Both the position numbers and the translations under genes were made by a program. Below, in pieces: positions 2,467 through 34,731 of a DNA stretch of 36,688 nt. Below the pieces are notes generated by a model. It searched no databases, was not told the origin of the DNA, and saw only the letters and a list, made by a program, of their open reading frames with translations. Source of the stretch: a virus; IMG/VR virus record IMGVR_UViG_3300042868_011898, positions 1 to 36,688 of that record; one strand, written 5' to 3'. How positions within the stretch are numbered: the stretch's first letter is position 1; every line of letters begins with the position of its first letter.

Positions 2467-3012
2467 ATGTTACAAAACGAAAAAAAAATAGCTGTTGAAA
2501 AATATATTAATACAATGTCTAAAAAAACAGGTATTGAATATAAATACAGCCAAGAACATGGTAACAATTGGGTTGGAATAGTAGTTGACCTGTCAAAATA
2601 TGATAAGAATTCAAAAAACTATGACGAAGAATATTTTAATAAAATATATTCTGAGCCAAAAGGATTTTTTAAGTCAAGAACTTGGAGGCTCGGTGAATTT
2701 ATTAACACAATGAAAAAATTATTATCAATTGATAGTAATATTAAAATATTTTTTGATTTTAAAAATTACGATTATACAAATAAAGTATCTGACGATATTA
2801 AAAAAGCAATTAAAAAAACCAAATTCCCACAAACACAATTTAGATTTGAAACTGAATTTAATGAACCAGGTATAAACATGAGATTTGGTAATTTTCCAGT
2901 TATGGAAAGAGGTACATTTTCAGAATTTCTTGATGAATTAAAACAACTTGTTGATTACGATTTAGATGTTTATCGTTGGGTCTATAGTACTGGCCCGATA
3001 AATGAAGATTAA
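2467..3012 (+). CDS. Unknown protein, 181 aa
   Basis: Starts 1 nt after the previous stop, so it is probably co-transcribed. Soluble, with a mix of charged helices and strands; tryptophans near residues 37, 73 and 172. No leader peptide, signal peptide or membrane segment. Its 3' end overlaps the convergent minus-strand gene by 4 nt. No function is recognised. Confidence 0.65.
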   Translation: MLQNEKKIAVEKYINTMSKKTGIEYKYSQEHGNNWVGIVVDLSKYDKNSKNYDEEYFNKIYSEPKGFFKSRTWRLGEFINTMKKLLSIDSNIKIFFDFKNYDYTNKVSDDIKKAIKKTKFPQTQFRFETEFNEPGINMRFGNFPVMERGTFSEFLDELKQLVDYDLDVYRWVYSTGPINED

Positions 3013-3464
3013 TTATTTTTCTTAATTTTTTCCTCTAAATCACAAAGAGTTTTATAACTATTATCTTGAAATATTACTTTGGGAGTTGATTCCAATAAAA
3101 CAGAATCTCTTATTCTAATTGTCTGACTTTGGTATTTCAAAGTATTTTTCATTCCTTCTATTATTATCATTATTTCTTTCTCTCTCTCAACAATTCTGTT
3201 TGTACATTCTTGTTCATTGAAAATGATTTGCCGATTTAAATCAACCAATTTTCTATTTTGAAATAATAAATTATTACTTAATGTATCAATTTGAGTTTGT
3301 TGGAATGAAATAGTTTTCTTCAGCTCTTCAGTTTCAGGAGAAATTGACTTAAAATATGATGGTAAAACAAATATTATAATTGTCGCCAATACAAGAATTA
3401 TAAGACCTGTCATTCTTTGTCTTCTTGTTAGTGTCGTTAGTATTTGCTGAACATCAAACTTCAT
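3009..3464 (-). CDS. Membrane-anchored coiled-coil protein (i-spanin-like)
   Basis: The start at 3464 (MKFDVQQIL) is preferred over one at 3488, because the TATTTATAAATA palindrome lies immediately upstream of it and would otherwise be inside the gene. The protein has one TM segment (about residues 21-40, after RRQRM) followed by a long coiled coil (about 45-115). This N-in/C-out layout fits Rz-type inner-membrane spanins. There is no overlapping lipoprotein partner here, so the spanin call is tentative; a structural or regulatory membrane protein is equally possible. Confidence 0.55.
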   Translation of the reverse strand: MKFDVQQILTTLTRRQRMTGLIILVLATIIIFVLPSYFKSISPETEELKKTISFQQTQIDTLSNNLLFQNRKLVDLNRQIIFNEQECTNRIVEREKEIMIIIEGMKNTLKYQSQTIRIRDSVLLESTPKVIFQDNSYKTLCDLEEKIKKNN

Positions 3465-8145: not shown

Positions 8146-9258
8146 ATGAGAAACCTGTTAACTGAGGTACAAAGAATTAAACAAATGATTGGTGTTCCAT
8201 TGAATGAGATGGCAAAACCATCTGAACACCATATTAAATCTATACAGACAATTTTAAGTGTTAATGGTCTTTTAAAAAAAGAGTCCGAATCACTTTTTAA
8301 CCAAATTGTGGAACTCGCTGATGACCAAGTTATAAATTTTGATTTATTAGAACATGGTGTTAAAAACACATTACTCAAAAAAGGTGACAAGTATGTGTCG
8401 ATTGTTAAATATTTTGAAAAAGTTCTTGGTTCTTTAAAGGACAGAGAACCTGATTCATATGAAATTGAGCCAGAACAAGATGACTATAGTTTTGAACCTG
8501 AGGAACCATCAATATTAAAGAAAAAAGTCTTTAGAAAAGAATTATATTACTTACAAGTAGAACTTCTTAAACTTCAAGAATGGTTAATGGAAACAGGTAA
8601 AACAGTTATAATTGTTTTTGAAGGAAGAGATTCTGCAGGTAAAGGTTCAACTATCAAAAAATTTACTGAGAATTTAAATCCAAGATATTTTAATATTATC
8701 GCTCTTGGTATCCCATCTCCTGAGGAAAGACAAGATTGGTTTGGAAGATATAAAAAACATATTAAACCTGGTATGATTAATTTCTTTGACAGAAGTTGGT
8801 ATAACAGAGGTCTTGTTGAACCTGTAATGGGATATGGTTCTGAAGAAGAATATGAACATTTTATGGAAAATGTTGAGAGTTTTGAAAATGAATTAGTTGA
8901 GAAAGGAGACTATCTCTTTAAATTATGGTTCTCAATTGATAAGGAAACTCAAGCAAGACGATTTGATATGAGACAAAAATCACCACTCAAATATTGGAAG
9001 TATTCTCCAAATGATTCCAAGATGCAAGATATGTGGGAAAGGTTTACTGAATTTAAACAAAGACTATTTGATAAGACATCTACAATAAACCATCCTTGGA
9101 TTGTTTTAGACGCAAATGATAAAAAAGTATCGGGATTGAATGCAATTAGATATGTGTTACAAAACATCCCTTATGAAAATAAAAATGAAGAATTATTGGG
9201 TAAGGATTTTCCTGAAGCAATGGCCGTTTTAAAACCTGAAACAAATGAAAATAATTGA
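8146..9258 (+). CDS. ppk2: Polyphosphate kinase 2 (PPK2 family) with leader peptide
   Basis: 370 aa. Residues about 128-345 are a PPK2 domain: Walker A F-E-G-R-D-S-A-G-K-G-S (about 152-162), Walker B/lid F-F-D-R-S-W-Y-N-R-G-L-V-E-P-V-M-G (about 212-228), then W-F-S-I-D-K-E-T-Q-A-R-R-F and a typical W-K-Y-S-P-N-D segment. These enzymes move phosphate between polyphosphate and (d)NDP/NMP. The extra 120-residue N-terminus begins MRNLLTEVQRIKQMIGVPLNE, which fits the window's leader pattern (L-N-E), followed by an acidic linker. Its operon neighbours are leader proteins and a lysozyme. A leader on a metabolic enzyme suggests delivery into the host cell with the DNA; that is inference. Confidence 0.93.
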   Translation: MRNLLTEVQRIKQMIGVPLNEMAKPSEHHIKSIQTILSVNGLLKKESESLFNQIVELADDQVINFDLLEHGVKNTLLKKGDKYVSIVKYFEKVLGSLKDREPDSYEIEPEQDDYSFEPEEPSILKKKVFRKELYYLQVELLKLQEWLMETGKTVIIVFEGRDSAGKGSTIKKFTENLNPRYFNIIALGIPSPEERQDWFGRYKKHIKPGMINFFDRSWYNRGLVEPVMGYGSEEEYEHFMENVESFENELVEKGDYLFKLWFSIDKETQARRFDMRQKSPLKYWKYSPNDSKMQDMWERFTEFKQRLFDKTSTINHPWIVLDANDKKVSGLNAIRYVLQNIPYENKNEELLGKDFPEAMAVLKPETNENN

Positions 9259-28875: not shown

Positions 28876-28947
28876 GCCTCTATAGTTAAAGGGATATAAC
28901 TAGGGATTTCTAATCCCTCATTCCAGGTTCGAATCCTGGTAGAGGTA
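28876..28947 (+). tRNA. tRNA-Arg (UCU)
   Basis: 72 nt. Acceptor GCCTCTA/TAGAGGT (G-U first pair), anticodon stem AGGGA/TCCCT with loop TTTCTAA (TCT), T-arm CCAGG-TTCGAAT-CCTGG, discriminator A, no CCA encoded. It reads AGA, a codon heavily used in this AT-rich DNA. Its 3' half overlaps the antisense HNH gene. Confidence 0.93.
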
Positions 28948-29475
28948 CTTTGGGTTCGATTGCTCACCGTGGATTTCACGGTGGCAATTTGAACATAGTA
29001 ACATACATTTATCGAGTTCGTCAATTATAATTTGGTCAAATTTATATCTCTTTAAATGTGACAAACTAAAATCTTTTTTAGTCGGGTCAATGTGGTGAAA
29101 TTCTAAGGCTCCGTAATATTTGTCATATCCACATCTTTCACATTTACCCCCTTTATATTCAATCATTTGTTTTTTTAAGTTTCTTTGCCTAACAACAGTT
29201 TGATGATTAGTACATTGTTTACAATATGAAGAAGAATTAGATTTATCCCTTCTATTATAAAATTCAGATGTACTACATTCTTTCTCACATTTAGGGCAAA
29301 ATCTAGTTTCCCCATAATTTTTTTTGTTAATATCCTTAAAAGGTTTATTAGGTAAATTTATTTGATGTTTTTTAGCCCAATATCTTACTGTTGTAAGTCC
29401 TTTACCTGTTTCTTTACTTATTTGGTTTAGAGATAAACCACTATTAATTTTCTCAATTAAAAATTCTTTAGTCAT
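28918..29475 (-). CDS. HNH homing-type endonuclease overlapping tRNA-Arg
   Basis: The start at 29475 (MTKEFLIEKI) is chosen because a TATTTATA box lies between it and the alternative ATG at 29502. N-terminal helix-turn-helix (G-L-S-L-N-Q-I-S-K-E-T-G-K-G-L-T-T-V-R-Y-W), then a zinc ribbon (C-P-K-C ... C-K-Q-C), then the HNH core C-E-R-C-G-Y, L-E-F-H-H-I-D-P and C-M-L-L-C-S-N-C-H-R-E-I-H. The last nine residues (Y-L-Y-Q-D-S-N-L-E) are read antisense through the tRNA-Arg T-arm and acceptor. Probably a free-standing homing nuclease targeting the tRNA site. Confidence 0.9.
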   Translation of the reverse strand: MTKEFLIEKINSGLSLNQISKETGKGLTTVRYWAKKHQINLPNKPFKDINKKNYGETRFCPKCEKECSTSEFYNRRDKSNSSSYCKQCTNHQTVVRQRNLKKQMIEYKGGKCERCGYDKYYGALEFHHIDPTKKDFSLSHLKRYKFDQIIIDELDKCMLLCSNCHREIHGEQSNPKYLYQDSNLE

Positions 29476-29489
29476 ATGGATAGTTTTTA

Positions 29490-29497
29490 TATAAATA
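29490..29497 (-). promoter_or_regulatory. TATTTATA late promoter
   Basis: Minus strand, 14 nt before the ATG at 29475. Confidence 0.5.
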
Positions 29498-29532
29498 TCC
29501 ATTAAGTTATTTTTTTATTGTAAATTATTAAT

Positions 29533-32080: not shown

Positions 32081-32090
32081 TAATTAATAA

Positions 32091-32119
32091 AAAAACCCCT
32101 AAGATAAGGGGTTTTTTTA
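32091..32119. terminator. Bidirectional terminator (M15 peptidase / tmRNA)
   Basis: CCCCT (32096-32100) pairs with AGGGG (32107-32111) with A- and T-runs on both sides. It serves the plus M15 gene and the minus tmRNA. Confidence 0.85.
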
Positions 32120-32142
32120 TTTGGTGGAGGTGCGGGGATTCG

Positions 32143-32366
32143 CTTTAATCTCTAAGTTTCCTTAAAGTGTGGACTATATCATCACCCTTTTTGGGTGTCG
32201 GATTCTTATGTGGTATTATGTTAGAAGCGTCTAACCCCCACTAGTCTCTGCACCTTCCTCTTCCTAAGAGGCTCGGCTCAGTGTTATCATCAGCATTACC
32301 TGTTAAGAGTTCACTGAATTCTTCCAATTTTTAATACTACATTCCTGTAGTATGGGTCCGAAATTA
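32143..32366 (-). ncRNA. Group I intron within the tmRNA T-loop
   Basis: 224 nt, no ORF. P1: exon end TGGGTT (32372-32367) pairs with GGACCCA (32359-32353), leaving the required U-G wobble at the 5' splice site. Core: TGAGCCGAGCC and GAAGGTGCAGAGACTA (P4-P7 region), with P7 GACTA pairing TAGTC in GATATAGTCC. The last intron base is G (omega-G, 32143). A P2-like hairpin ATACTACA-GGAA-TGTAGTAT follows P1. Splicing joins TGGGTT to CGAATCCCC, restoring a perfect TTCGAAT T-loop. Confidence 0.88.
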
Positions 32367-32572
32367 AACCCAGGTCTTGCTCATACGGATTAATAAGGAC
32401 TACACGCTTAGGTTAATGATGGTTCTCACCATTCCAAAATATTCCGTTTAGATTACCCTTCCGTAACGGACAACCAAGGGTTTGTTTCTTTTTGGGTAGA
32501 AACCACACCACAGTACGAGCTTCTGTTCCAAGGTTATATGCTTACCGACCCGTTTTGTAGGCTAATTCTAGA

Positions 32573-32638
32573 TTAGGCTACTGATACTTCTTCAGTGCGG
32601 ATGAAACCGAGAGTCTGAAGTTTTGCAATTGTATTGCC
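32573..32638 (-). other. Proposed tmRNA tag reading frame
   Basis: GGC at 32638 to TAA at 32575-32573 would encode a 21-residue tag, G-N-T-I-A-K-L-Q-T-L-G ... E-E-V-S-V-A. The stop lies in a hairpin (CTAAT/ATTAG) as in other tmRNAs. The resume codon is a guess; the tag end V-S-V-A differs from the usual A-L-A-A. Confidence 0.5.
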
Positions 32639-32753
32639 ATTTAACGTTTGTTCCCATAGATTAAAGTGATAGAAAACATCTCACTGCGTGCCCCGATTAA
32701 CAAGTTATGCCAATCAATTCCAAGAACACCCCCATATTTCAAATAACGTGATA

Positions 32754-32785
32754 CAAAGATATAAATAGTTTATTGATATTCCAAG
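32754..32785 (-). promoter_or_regulatory. Bacteroidetes promoter for tmRNA
   Basis: -7 TATCTTTG at 32761-32754 on the minus strand, with CTTG at 32785-32782 (spacer 20). The mature 5' end is 20 nt downstream, leaving a short leader for RNase P removal. Confidence 0.65.
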
Positions 32786-33918: not shown

Positions 33919-34731
33919 ATGAAAAATCTTGATTTTTTTAAGAAACTGCTTTCAGTTCCAACCTACACTTACTATGAAGACAAAATGATTGCATTTCTTG
34001 AGAGTCATTTGAATTCCAAGGGATATGAACATTATACCGATGATTACGGAAATGTTTATGTGACCAAAGGTGTCTTATCTGAAGGTGAGAATTATCCTTG
34101 TGTTGTTGCTCATACCGATACCGTTCACAAACTTGACACAATTAATGTTGTTGAGGAAACCCTCCCAAATTCAAAAGGTCAAGATTCATTATGTCTTAAA
34201 GCATATAATGATTTTGATGAACCAACAGGAATTGGTGGTGATGACAAATGTGGTGTTTTTGCTTGTCTTGAACTTCTTGATAAGTTTGACGTAATTAAGG
34301 CGGCATTCTTTGTATCAGAGGAAGTTGGTTGTATCGGCTCAAAAAATGCCGACGACAGATTCTTTGATGATGTCGGATATGTTATTGAGTTTGACGCACC
34401 TGGAGACTACATGGTTACTGAGTATTGTTTCGGAGTTAAACTATACGATAAAGAATCCGAATTCTTTCAAAAGACAGACAAGGTATTGACCGAACATATG
34501 CTTGGGACACCTCAATACATGGTCCATCCTTATACTGATGTATATGCTCTGAAGAAGAAATACAATTTTGCTTGTATCAACTTCTCAATTGGTTATCACA
34601 ACTATCACACAAAAAATGAATATATTTGTGTTGAGGAAGTTGAGGCGGGAATTAAATCAGGGGAAGAACTAATCAAATCTTTGGGTAATGTCAAACATCA
34701 TTTTGACCATCCGTCAAAAGTTAACTTATAA
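33919..34731 (+). CDS. M20/M28-type metallopeptidase (PepT-like), 270 aa
   Basis: Zinc-site motifs in the family order: C-V-V-A-H-T-D-T-V-H (His and Asp ligands region, about residues 54-63), G-I-G-G-D-D-K-C-G-V-F-A (bridging Asp, about 109-120), F-V-S-E-E-V-G-C-I-G-S (catalytic Glu-Glu, about 131-141), V-I-E-F-D-A-P-G (Asp ligand) and a late His in F-S-I-G-Y-H-N-Y-H-T. It is shorter than typical PepT (about 400 aa), and the region between the last two motifs suggests a reduced or missing dimerisation domain. Acts on peptides in the cytoplasm. Host-type promoter; likely host-derived. Confidence 0.85.
   Translation: MKNLDFFKKLLSVPTYTYYEDKMIAFLESHLNSKGYEHYTDDYGNVYVTKGVLSEGENYPCVVAHTDTVHKLDTINVVEETLPNSKGQDSLCLKAYNDFDEPTGIGGDDKCGVFACLELLDKFDVIKAAFFVSEEVGCIGSKNADDRFFDDVGYVIEFDAPGDYMVTEYCFGVKLYDKESEFFQKTDKVLTEHMLGTPQYMVHPYTDVYALKKKYNFACINFSIGYHNYHTKNEYICVEEVEAGIKSGEELIKSLGNVKHHFDHPSKVNL

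Follow-up and report, generated by a model that had tools for sequence, protein, structure and literature searches.

The stretch of DNA analysed here (the window) is a 36.7-kb fragment (36,688 nt) of an IMG/VR virus record, IMGVR_UViG_3300042868_011898. On its minus strand lies a tmRNA gene (ssrA) split by a group I intron in the T-loop (Table 1). The 5' exon, which includes the tag reading frame and the first two T-loop bases, ends with ...GACCTGGGTT, its last base being 32367; the intron reads TAATTTCGGACCC...GATTAAAG and the 3' exon CGAATCCCCGCACCTCCACCA. Joining the exons in silico gave a 388-nt RNA with the T-loop TTCGAAT, which puts the intron at T-loop subsite 3, between TT and CGAAT. 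A splice placement after GGGUUU and before AAUCC was rejected because it would leave a T-loop of 6 bases. All 7 acceptor pairs (GGGGGTG/CACCTCC) are formed, as are 4 of the 5 pairs of the T-stem (CTGGG/CCCCG), which is fully paired in every other intron-bearing relative listed. The relative L015 has the full T-stem CTGGG/CCCAG, and its 388 exon bases are otherwise those of the window; the mismatch in the window goes back either to a single recent change or to an error in sequencing. A first-pass annotation, made from the sequence alone, had proposed a phage tmRNA with a T-loop group I intron at 32122–32733. It had described a 7-bp acceptor stem, an encoded CCA, a tag frame, a P1 helix with U-G, the core motifs GGTGCAGAGACTA and GATATAGTCC, an omega-G, and a 224-nt removal leaving a 388-nt RNA with the T-loop TTCGAAT. 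Every testable detail of it holds, and the strand can now be given as minus.

Table 1. Features of the split tmRNA gene and its surroundings in the window
Feature	Position	Strand	Evidence or remark
tmRNA gene, whole, intron included	32733..32122	minus	in agreement with the first-pass annotation
tmRNA 5' exon, 367 nt	32367..32733	minus	sequence; 96% identity to intronless orthologue L042
Acceptor 5' strand, in 5' exon	32733..32727	minus	7/7 pairs
Tag reading frame GNTIAKLQTLGFIRTEEVSVA, resume codon GGC, stop TAA	32573..32638	minus	ARAGORN frame in intronless relatives
T-stem 5' strand CTGGG, in 5' exon	32369..32373	minus	T32372 opposite C32134 is the sole T-stem mismatch
Group I intron, 224 nt	32143..32366	minus	RF00028 match; covariation; empty site in L042
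tmRNA 3' exon, 21 nt	32122..32142	minus	remaining T-loop, T-stem, acceptor, discriminator A, CCA
T-stem 3' strand, in 3' exon	32137..32133	minus	sequence
Acceptor 3' strand, in 3' exon	32132..32126	minus	U70 faces G3
Encoded 3' CCA	32124..32122	minus	sequence
Promoter box TATCTTTG, 28 nt upstream of tmRNA	32754..32761	minus	TAnnTTTG type
Intrinsic terminator directly after CCA	32086..32121	minus
Conserved neighbour, 357 aa	32808..33881	plus	no Pfam match; homologues beside many tmRNAs
Peptidase, M42/M28/M20 type	33919..34731	plus	phrog_4191 E 4e-36; Pfam
ClpC/ClpA-type AAA+ unfoldase with ClpP-docking IGF loop	34744..36688	minus	phrog_4871 E 1e-234; Pfam; continues past window end
ORFs with shared N-terminal leaders	1735, 4680, 5628, 6737, 7742, 10148, 19862, 25360, 26321, 27618, others

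The tmRNA of the window was missed by the tools applied to it directly. ARAGORN, with and without its intron option, gave no match to the gene in spliced or unspliced form, RF00023 reached 6 bits on the unspliced window (cut-off 47 bits), and an Rfam E-value scan of the tmRNA region yielded no usable tmRNA match. Relatives were therefore sought. An IMG/VR scan with a pattern of intron end, T-stem and CCA returned 35 contigs, about 20 of which share the layout of the window; of the matches in this first viral scan, L007, L009, L010, L012, L020, L025, L029 and L039 were discarded, most of them being chance matches to a short pattern. Searching with the adjacent 357-aa protein turned up two relatives, L041 (the contig of L015) and L042, and an intron-blind scan with a motif of the 5' exon matched at least 120 contigs. 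Because the viral scans were pattern-based, the counts are lower bounds. All loci together hold at least 104 complete tmRNAs, 16 with the intron and 88 without it. Among the matches listed of the intron-blind sample, the intron was found in 5 of 92 complete tmRNAs; five further contigs of that sample carry it in a gene that is cut off or was not extracted whole. An intron in a phage tmRNA had been called unusual in the first-pass annotation; with these frequencies and at least about 25 IMG/VR contigs carrying it, it is recurrent instead. Group I introns were also seen in L008, L016, L017, L021, L026 and L037 (contigs filed as viral), where they interrupt a different tmRNA group at subsite 7, between GGTTCGAT and T.

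The intronless tmRNA of L042 (388 nt) matched RF00023 over its full length with 79.4 bits and an E-value of 7e-29, and the spliced RNA of the window, also 388 nt, is 96% identical to it. The RF00023 search suggested at first pass thus failed on the unspliced gene and succeeded on its orthologue, and the identity of the window tmRNA is supported by homology to L042. Pseudoknots PK1–PK4 and helix P2 are only implied, through the full-length match of L042. Across the family the acceptor strands covary (111 of 112 pairs, 16 distinct stems). The T-stem strands, which lie on opposite sides of the intron, are paired at 54 of 55 positions in 11 distinct stems, a level reached in 0 of 10000 shuffles, and the lone exception is the mismatch of the window. 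The alanine identity pair, G3.U70, is kept in 103 of the 104 tmRNAs. A tag frame of 20–24 codons starts from the same place in 103/104, and the tags of close pairs differ 82, 36 and 142 times at codon positions 1, 2 and 3, respectively; the conservation of the tag and the predominance of third-position changes imply that it is translated. ARAGORN calls the same frame as GNTIAKLQTLGFIRTEEVSVA in several intronless relatives. An alternative frame from GCA to TAG (AIQLQNFRLSVSSALKKYQ) was rejected because the relatives conserve the GGC frame with its TAA stop. Among the 104 complete tmRNAs, ARAGORN found 46 of the 88 intronless genes and none of the 16 with the intron.

The RF00028 search, likewise suggested at first pass, matched 32376..32150 on the minus strand over the full model (1–253) with 68.8 bits and an E-value of 1.4e-15. 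The covariation set comprised 20 introns and 59 pairs from helices P1, P2, P3, P4, P6a, P7, P7.1, P7.2, P8 and P9, with P5 and P6 left out. These pairs form in 91.7% of cells, two-sided changes occur in 33 of the 59 compared with 20.8 in shuffles, and the covariation score is 0.380 compared with 0.137 for shuffled data. When the partners were slid by 1–3 bases, pairing dropped from 92% to 33–46%. The window intron has a P1 with U.G at position -1, a P3–P8 core with crossing P7, a P9 and an omega-G at G32143. The introns of L024, L040, L073 and L003 would have A in place of omega-G if put at subsite 3, an ending that is hard to reconcile with splicing. In L023, L075 and L144, introns homologous in sequence lie at subsite 2, one base before subsite 3. 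All of these introns are too short for an endonuclease gene, and the 224 nt of the window intron leave no room for a homing endonuclease.

The intron boundaries are fixed by L042, a natural empty site. Its uninterrupted junction reads ...GACCGGGGTTCGACTCCCCGCACCTCCACCA, and the blastn alignment of the window with L042 stops exactly at 32367, the end of the exon. The intron-bearing L144 and the intronless L069 differ by a clean insertion of ∼194 nt, with exons 99.5% and flanks 94–96% identical. Between the window and L015, which both carry the intron, the exons are identical save for the T-stem change and the introns are 99% identical.

A tree of 90 spliced tmRNAs separated the phage genes from three Bacteroidota genes with a support of 98/99. 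On this tree, the presence of the intron requires 11 changes (gain and loss counted together), 10 of them forced by well-supported branches, and a single clade of intron-bearing tmRNAs was rejected by the AU test (p 3e-75). In the intron tree the window clusters with L015, L028, L035 and L043 (100/99), whereas the tmRNA tree rejects a clade of the window, L015, L028 and L035 (p 0.003), as well as one of L013, L034, L040 and L156 (p 3e-10). L156 and L034 share 97% of their intron bases but 84% of their exon bases, and each of the two has an intronless sister with exons 97–98% identical. The scattered presence of the intron and the conflict between the two trees indicate repeated movement or loss among phages, and the data show repeated gain or loss of the intron and its transfer between phage tmRNA genes.

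The genes around the tmRNA are conserved as well. In loci with that much sequence, a ClpC-like AAA+ protein was found within 4 kb upstream of the tmRNA in 36 of 51 and an M42/M28/M20-like peptidase upstream in 42 of 51, while downstream neither was found in 50 loci. The Clp profile match begins at about position 158 in most records, implying that the phage ClpC-like protein probably lacks the N-domain. The ClpP-docking [I/V/M]GF loop is kept in all 53 copies read, and a ClpP gene is present in 6 of the 16 records searched for one. The phage tags are 20–24 aa long and end mostly in V-x-V-A; the three bacterial tags read have 9 aa and ALAA ends (for example, GEDNYALAA in Lutibacter and GEGNYALAA in Flavobacterium). 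GOLLD RNA was observed ∼0.5–2.5 kb from the tmRNA in three relatives (L062 347–755, L113 9732–10142, L086 8757–9168) and also in two huge phages (L004, L005); it is not in the window. Elsewhere in the window, a gene for an HNH protein (28918..29502) abuts a tRNA-Arg (28876..28948) in a stretch that is absent from L042, as for an inserted free-standing endonuclease. The window also carries, as a phage gene, a polyphosphate kinase 2 domain at 8146..9258 (PF03976, E 8e-73).

The phage status was examined through related records. The window is syntenic with L042 and L015 and encodes a phage lysozyme. Twelve of 20 related records hold a T4 gp23-type capsid gene above cut-off, among them those of the intron-bearing L014, L018, L028, L040 and L156, of which L028 is a close relative, and the related records extend up to 274 kb. 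Terminase_6C (PF17289) was useless as a viral marker because it matched 0 records. A TAnnTTTG box precedes 89 of 103 tmRNAs, mostly at about -28, compared with 11 expected after shuffling. TAnnTTTG is the promoter consensus of Bacteroidota, and on this basis the box TATCTTTG is called Bacteroidota-type; because the box precedes the tmRNAs, the host phylum is taken to be Bacteroidota. The window probably comes from a large tailed phage with a Bacteroidota host. Short leaders of one kind, for instance LTESDLTKIVKRILKEQ, recur at the N-termini of at least ten ORFs of the window, with their ends near E[QS]. Given the gp23-type capsid, these leaders may be capsid-targeting sequences cut by a prohead protease.

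We hold it very probable that the locus is a phage ssrA split by a T-loop group I intron, that only the spliced RNA would rescue ribosomes, and that the intron has been gained and lost repeatedly. The anatomy, homology, covariation, empty sites and tree conflict are shown by the sequences, whereas splicing, charging, tagging, the host and the way in which the intron moves are what we infer. In the proposed mechanism, ssrA would be transcribed from the Bacteroidota-type promoter and end at the terminator after the encoded CCA. The intron would fold in the transcript, with P1 pairing its guide sequence with GGGUU of the 5' exon; the first attack, by an external G, would fall behind the -1 U, and the released 5' exon would in turn attack behind omega-G, joining GGGUU to CGAAU. 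The T-arm would exist only in the spliced RNA, which would be charged with alanine through G3.U70 and bind EF-Tu and SmpB, the latter presumably from the host. Stalled ribosomes would then be rescued and a 21-residue tag added. The intron itself would be a small parasite of the T-loop site that carries no endonuclease gene.

The contig could instead be a misfiled bacterial fragment with an ordinary bacterial intron-form tmRNA. Within the 36.7-kb window, no capsid or terminase gene was found, and intron-form tmRNAs are known in bacteria according to the 2025 tmRNA database (PMC11915505). However, gp23-type capsid genes are found in relatives that synteny and tmRNA sequence show to be close, related records reach the size given above, the window has a phage lysozyme, the phage tmRNAs fall on one side of the 98/99 branch from the Bacteroidota genes, and the three bacterial tags read are of the short ALAA type. 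This reading is already largely refuted and hardly credible. A different question is whether the intron passed recently from bacterial tmRNA genes to phages, or in reverse, and did not circulate among phages. A homologous subsite-3 intron was found in the tmRNA of 1 of 395 Bacteroidia genomes (G018, locus L177/L206). It is 76% identical to the window intron, its tmRNA encodes the tag GNNQFALAA and is the only RF00023 match above cut-off in that genome, and the genes beside it belong to the chromosome (Por secretion tail, trehalose synthesis, 3-hydroxyacyl-CoA dehydrogenase). In the database text, moreover, subsite 3 is reported only from class Bacteroidia (PMC11915505). On the other hand, the closest introns to that of the window are all from phages, L177 stands at an unresolved fork relative to the phage introns, and 84,980 genomes gave no real match to the phage-type intron end (0 in a first scan; 14 in a second, each of which proved on one-by-one reading to be a chance match outside tmRNA). 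Recent passage is conceivable though doubtful. In place of the movement between phages and bacteria suggested at first pass, the data show repeated gain or loss and transfer among phage tmRNA genes; for bacteria there is the one homologous Bacteroidia intron, and exchange with them is plausible.

It might also be that the tmRNA of the window is decaying, with an intron or T-stem so damaged that the gene yields hardly any functional tmRNA or none, while the relatives are functional. The T-stem mismatch (U32372/C32134), which L015 lacks in exons that otherwise match those of the window, fits this, as does the loss of the last two pairs of P3, both of which most relatives keep. But the short P3 is common to L015, L028, L035 and L043, the intron is nearly that of L015, and the tag frame and promoter are intact. 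Function need not be lost when a 5-bp T-stem has a single mismatch, and the mismatch may itself have arisen as a sequencing error in a metagenome contig. Decay is considered unlikely. Still less probable is a spliced RNA that tags nothing and has a decoy or regulatory role, such as titrating host SmpB. SmpB was found only in LR756501 among 26 records tested, and a molecule consisting of the tRNA-like domain alone, similar to the one in phage DS6A, has been shown to inhibit tmRNA (PMC4131195, citing Mao et al. 2009). Such a role does not explain why the tag frame of 20–24 codons persists in nearly all members with third-position changes dominating, nor why G3.U70 is retained.

For a split phage ssrA, the nearest known counterparts are the intron-form tmRNAs of bacteria. 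In the main text of the 2025 database, 883 sequences are described with introns at T-loop subsites 2, 3, 7 or 8, and subsite 2 is reported only from Anaerolineae and one Myxococcota (PMC11915505). They share with the phage genes a T-loop group I intron with -1 U.G and omega-G, a T-loop rebuilt on splicing, and a short intron without an endonuclease gene; here the intron lies in phage genomes, and subsites 2 (L023, L075, L144) and 3 are both present. That study counted 79 phage tmRNAs, and its main text is silent on any intron form. A tmRNA gene on a phage is also known from mycobacteriophages Bxz1, Wildcat and others, Bacillus phage G and DS6A (PMC4131195) and from huge phages, some of which have SmpB too (PMC7162821), with no intron mentioned in the passages searched of either paper. 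The huge-phage study was annotated with ARAGORN (PMC7162821). Because ARAGORN is common in phage annotation and finds none of them, intron-bearing tmRNAs go unseen. The 735-kb huge phage LR756501 (region L003 ∼2500–3135) has a group I intron (96.1 bits), whose end falls at the same place in the T-loop, and a tmRNA-like 5' part (RF00023 21 bits, E 4e-7), but it differs in having no encoded CCA, an uncertain acceptor pairing, A for omega-G and its own SmpB. Similar group I introns (∼70–75% identity) occur in the tRNA region of Klebsiella phage Muenster and in cyanophage psbA, at other insertion sites and with no tmRNA. In Muenster (L197 1440–1720), group I-like intron sequence lies unannotated between the annotated tRNA-Ser and tRNA-Asn genes. 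A single query from this tmRNA family, the intronless L102, had no match among 50,697 phage records. Bacterial intron-form tmRNAs and phage tmRNAs are thus known, and the apparently new element is the intron in a phage tmRNA, of which we found no report in the literature searched (mostly open-access, with the PMC11915505 supplement outside it).

With this finding, the range of the intron-form tmRNA widens from bacterial chromosomes to include phages. Gain, loss and cost of the intron can be studied in gene pairs that are nearly identical except for its presence, and the occurrence of subsites 2 and 3 in one phage intron family bears on whether separate invasions or a one-base shift gave rise to these sites. 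Tentatively, we suggest that the phages might run a pathway of their own, in which the V-x-V-A tag would mark proteins for destruction by the ClpC-like unfoldase and the peptidase, with the self-splicing intron gating the tmRNA. If this is true, it would amount to private trans-translation and proteolysis by the phage, apart from the ALAA tagging of the host. The link of tmRNA with a ClpC-like unfoldase and a peptidase, together with tags unlike those of the bacteria compared, makes the reason why phages keep a tmRNA testable.
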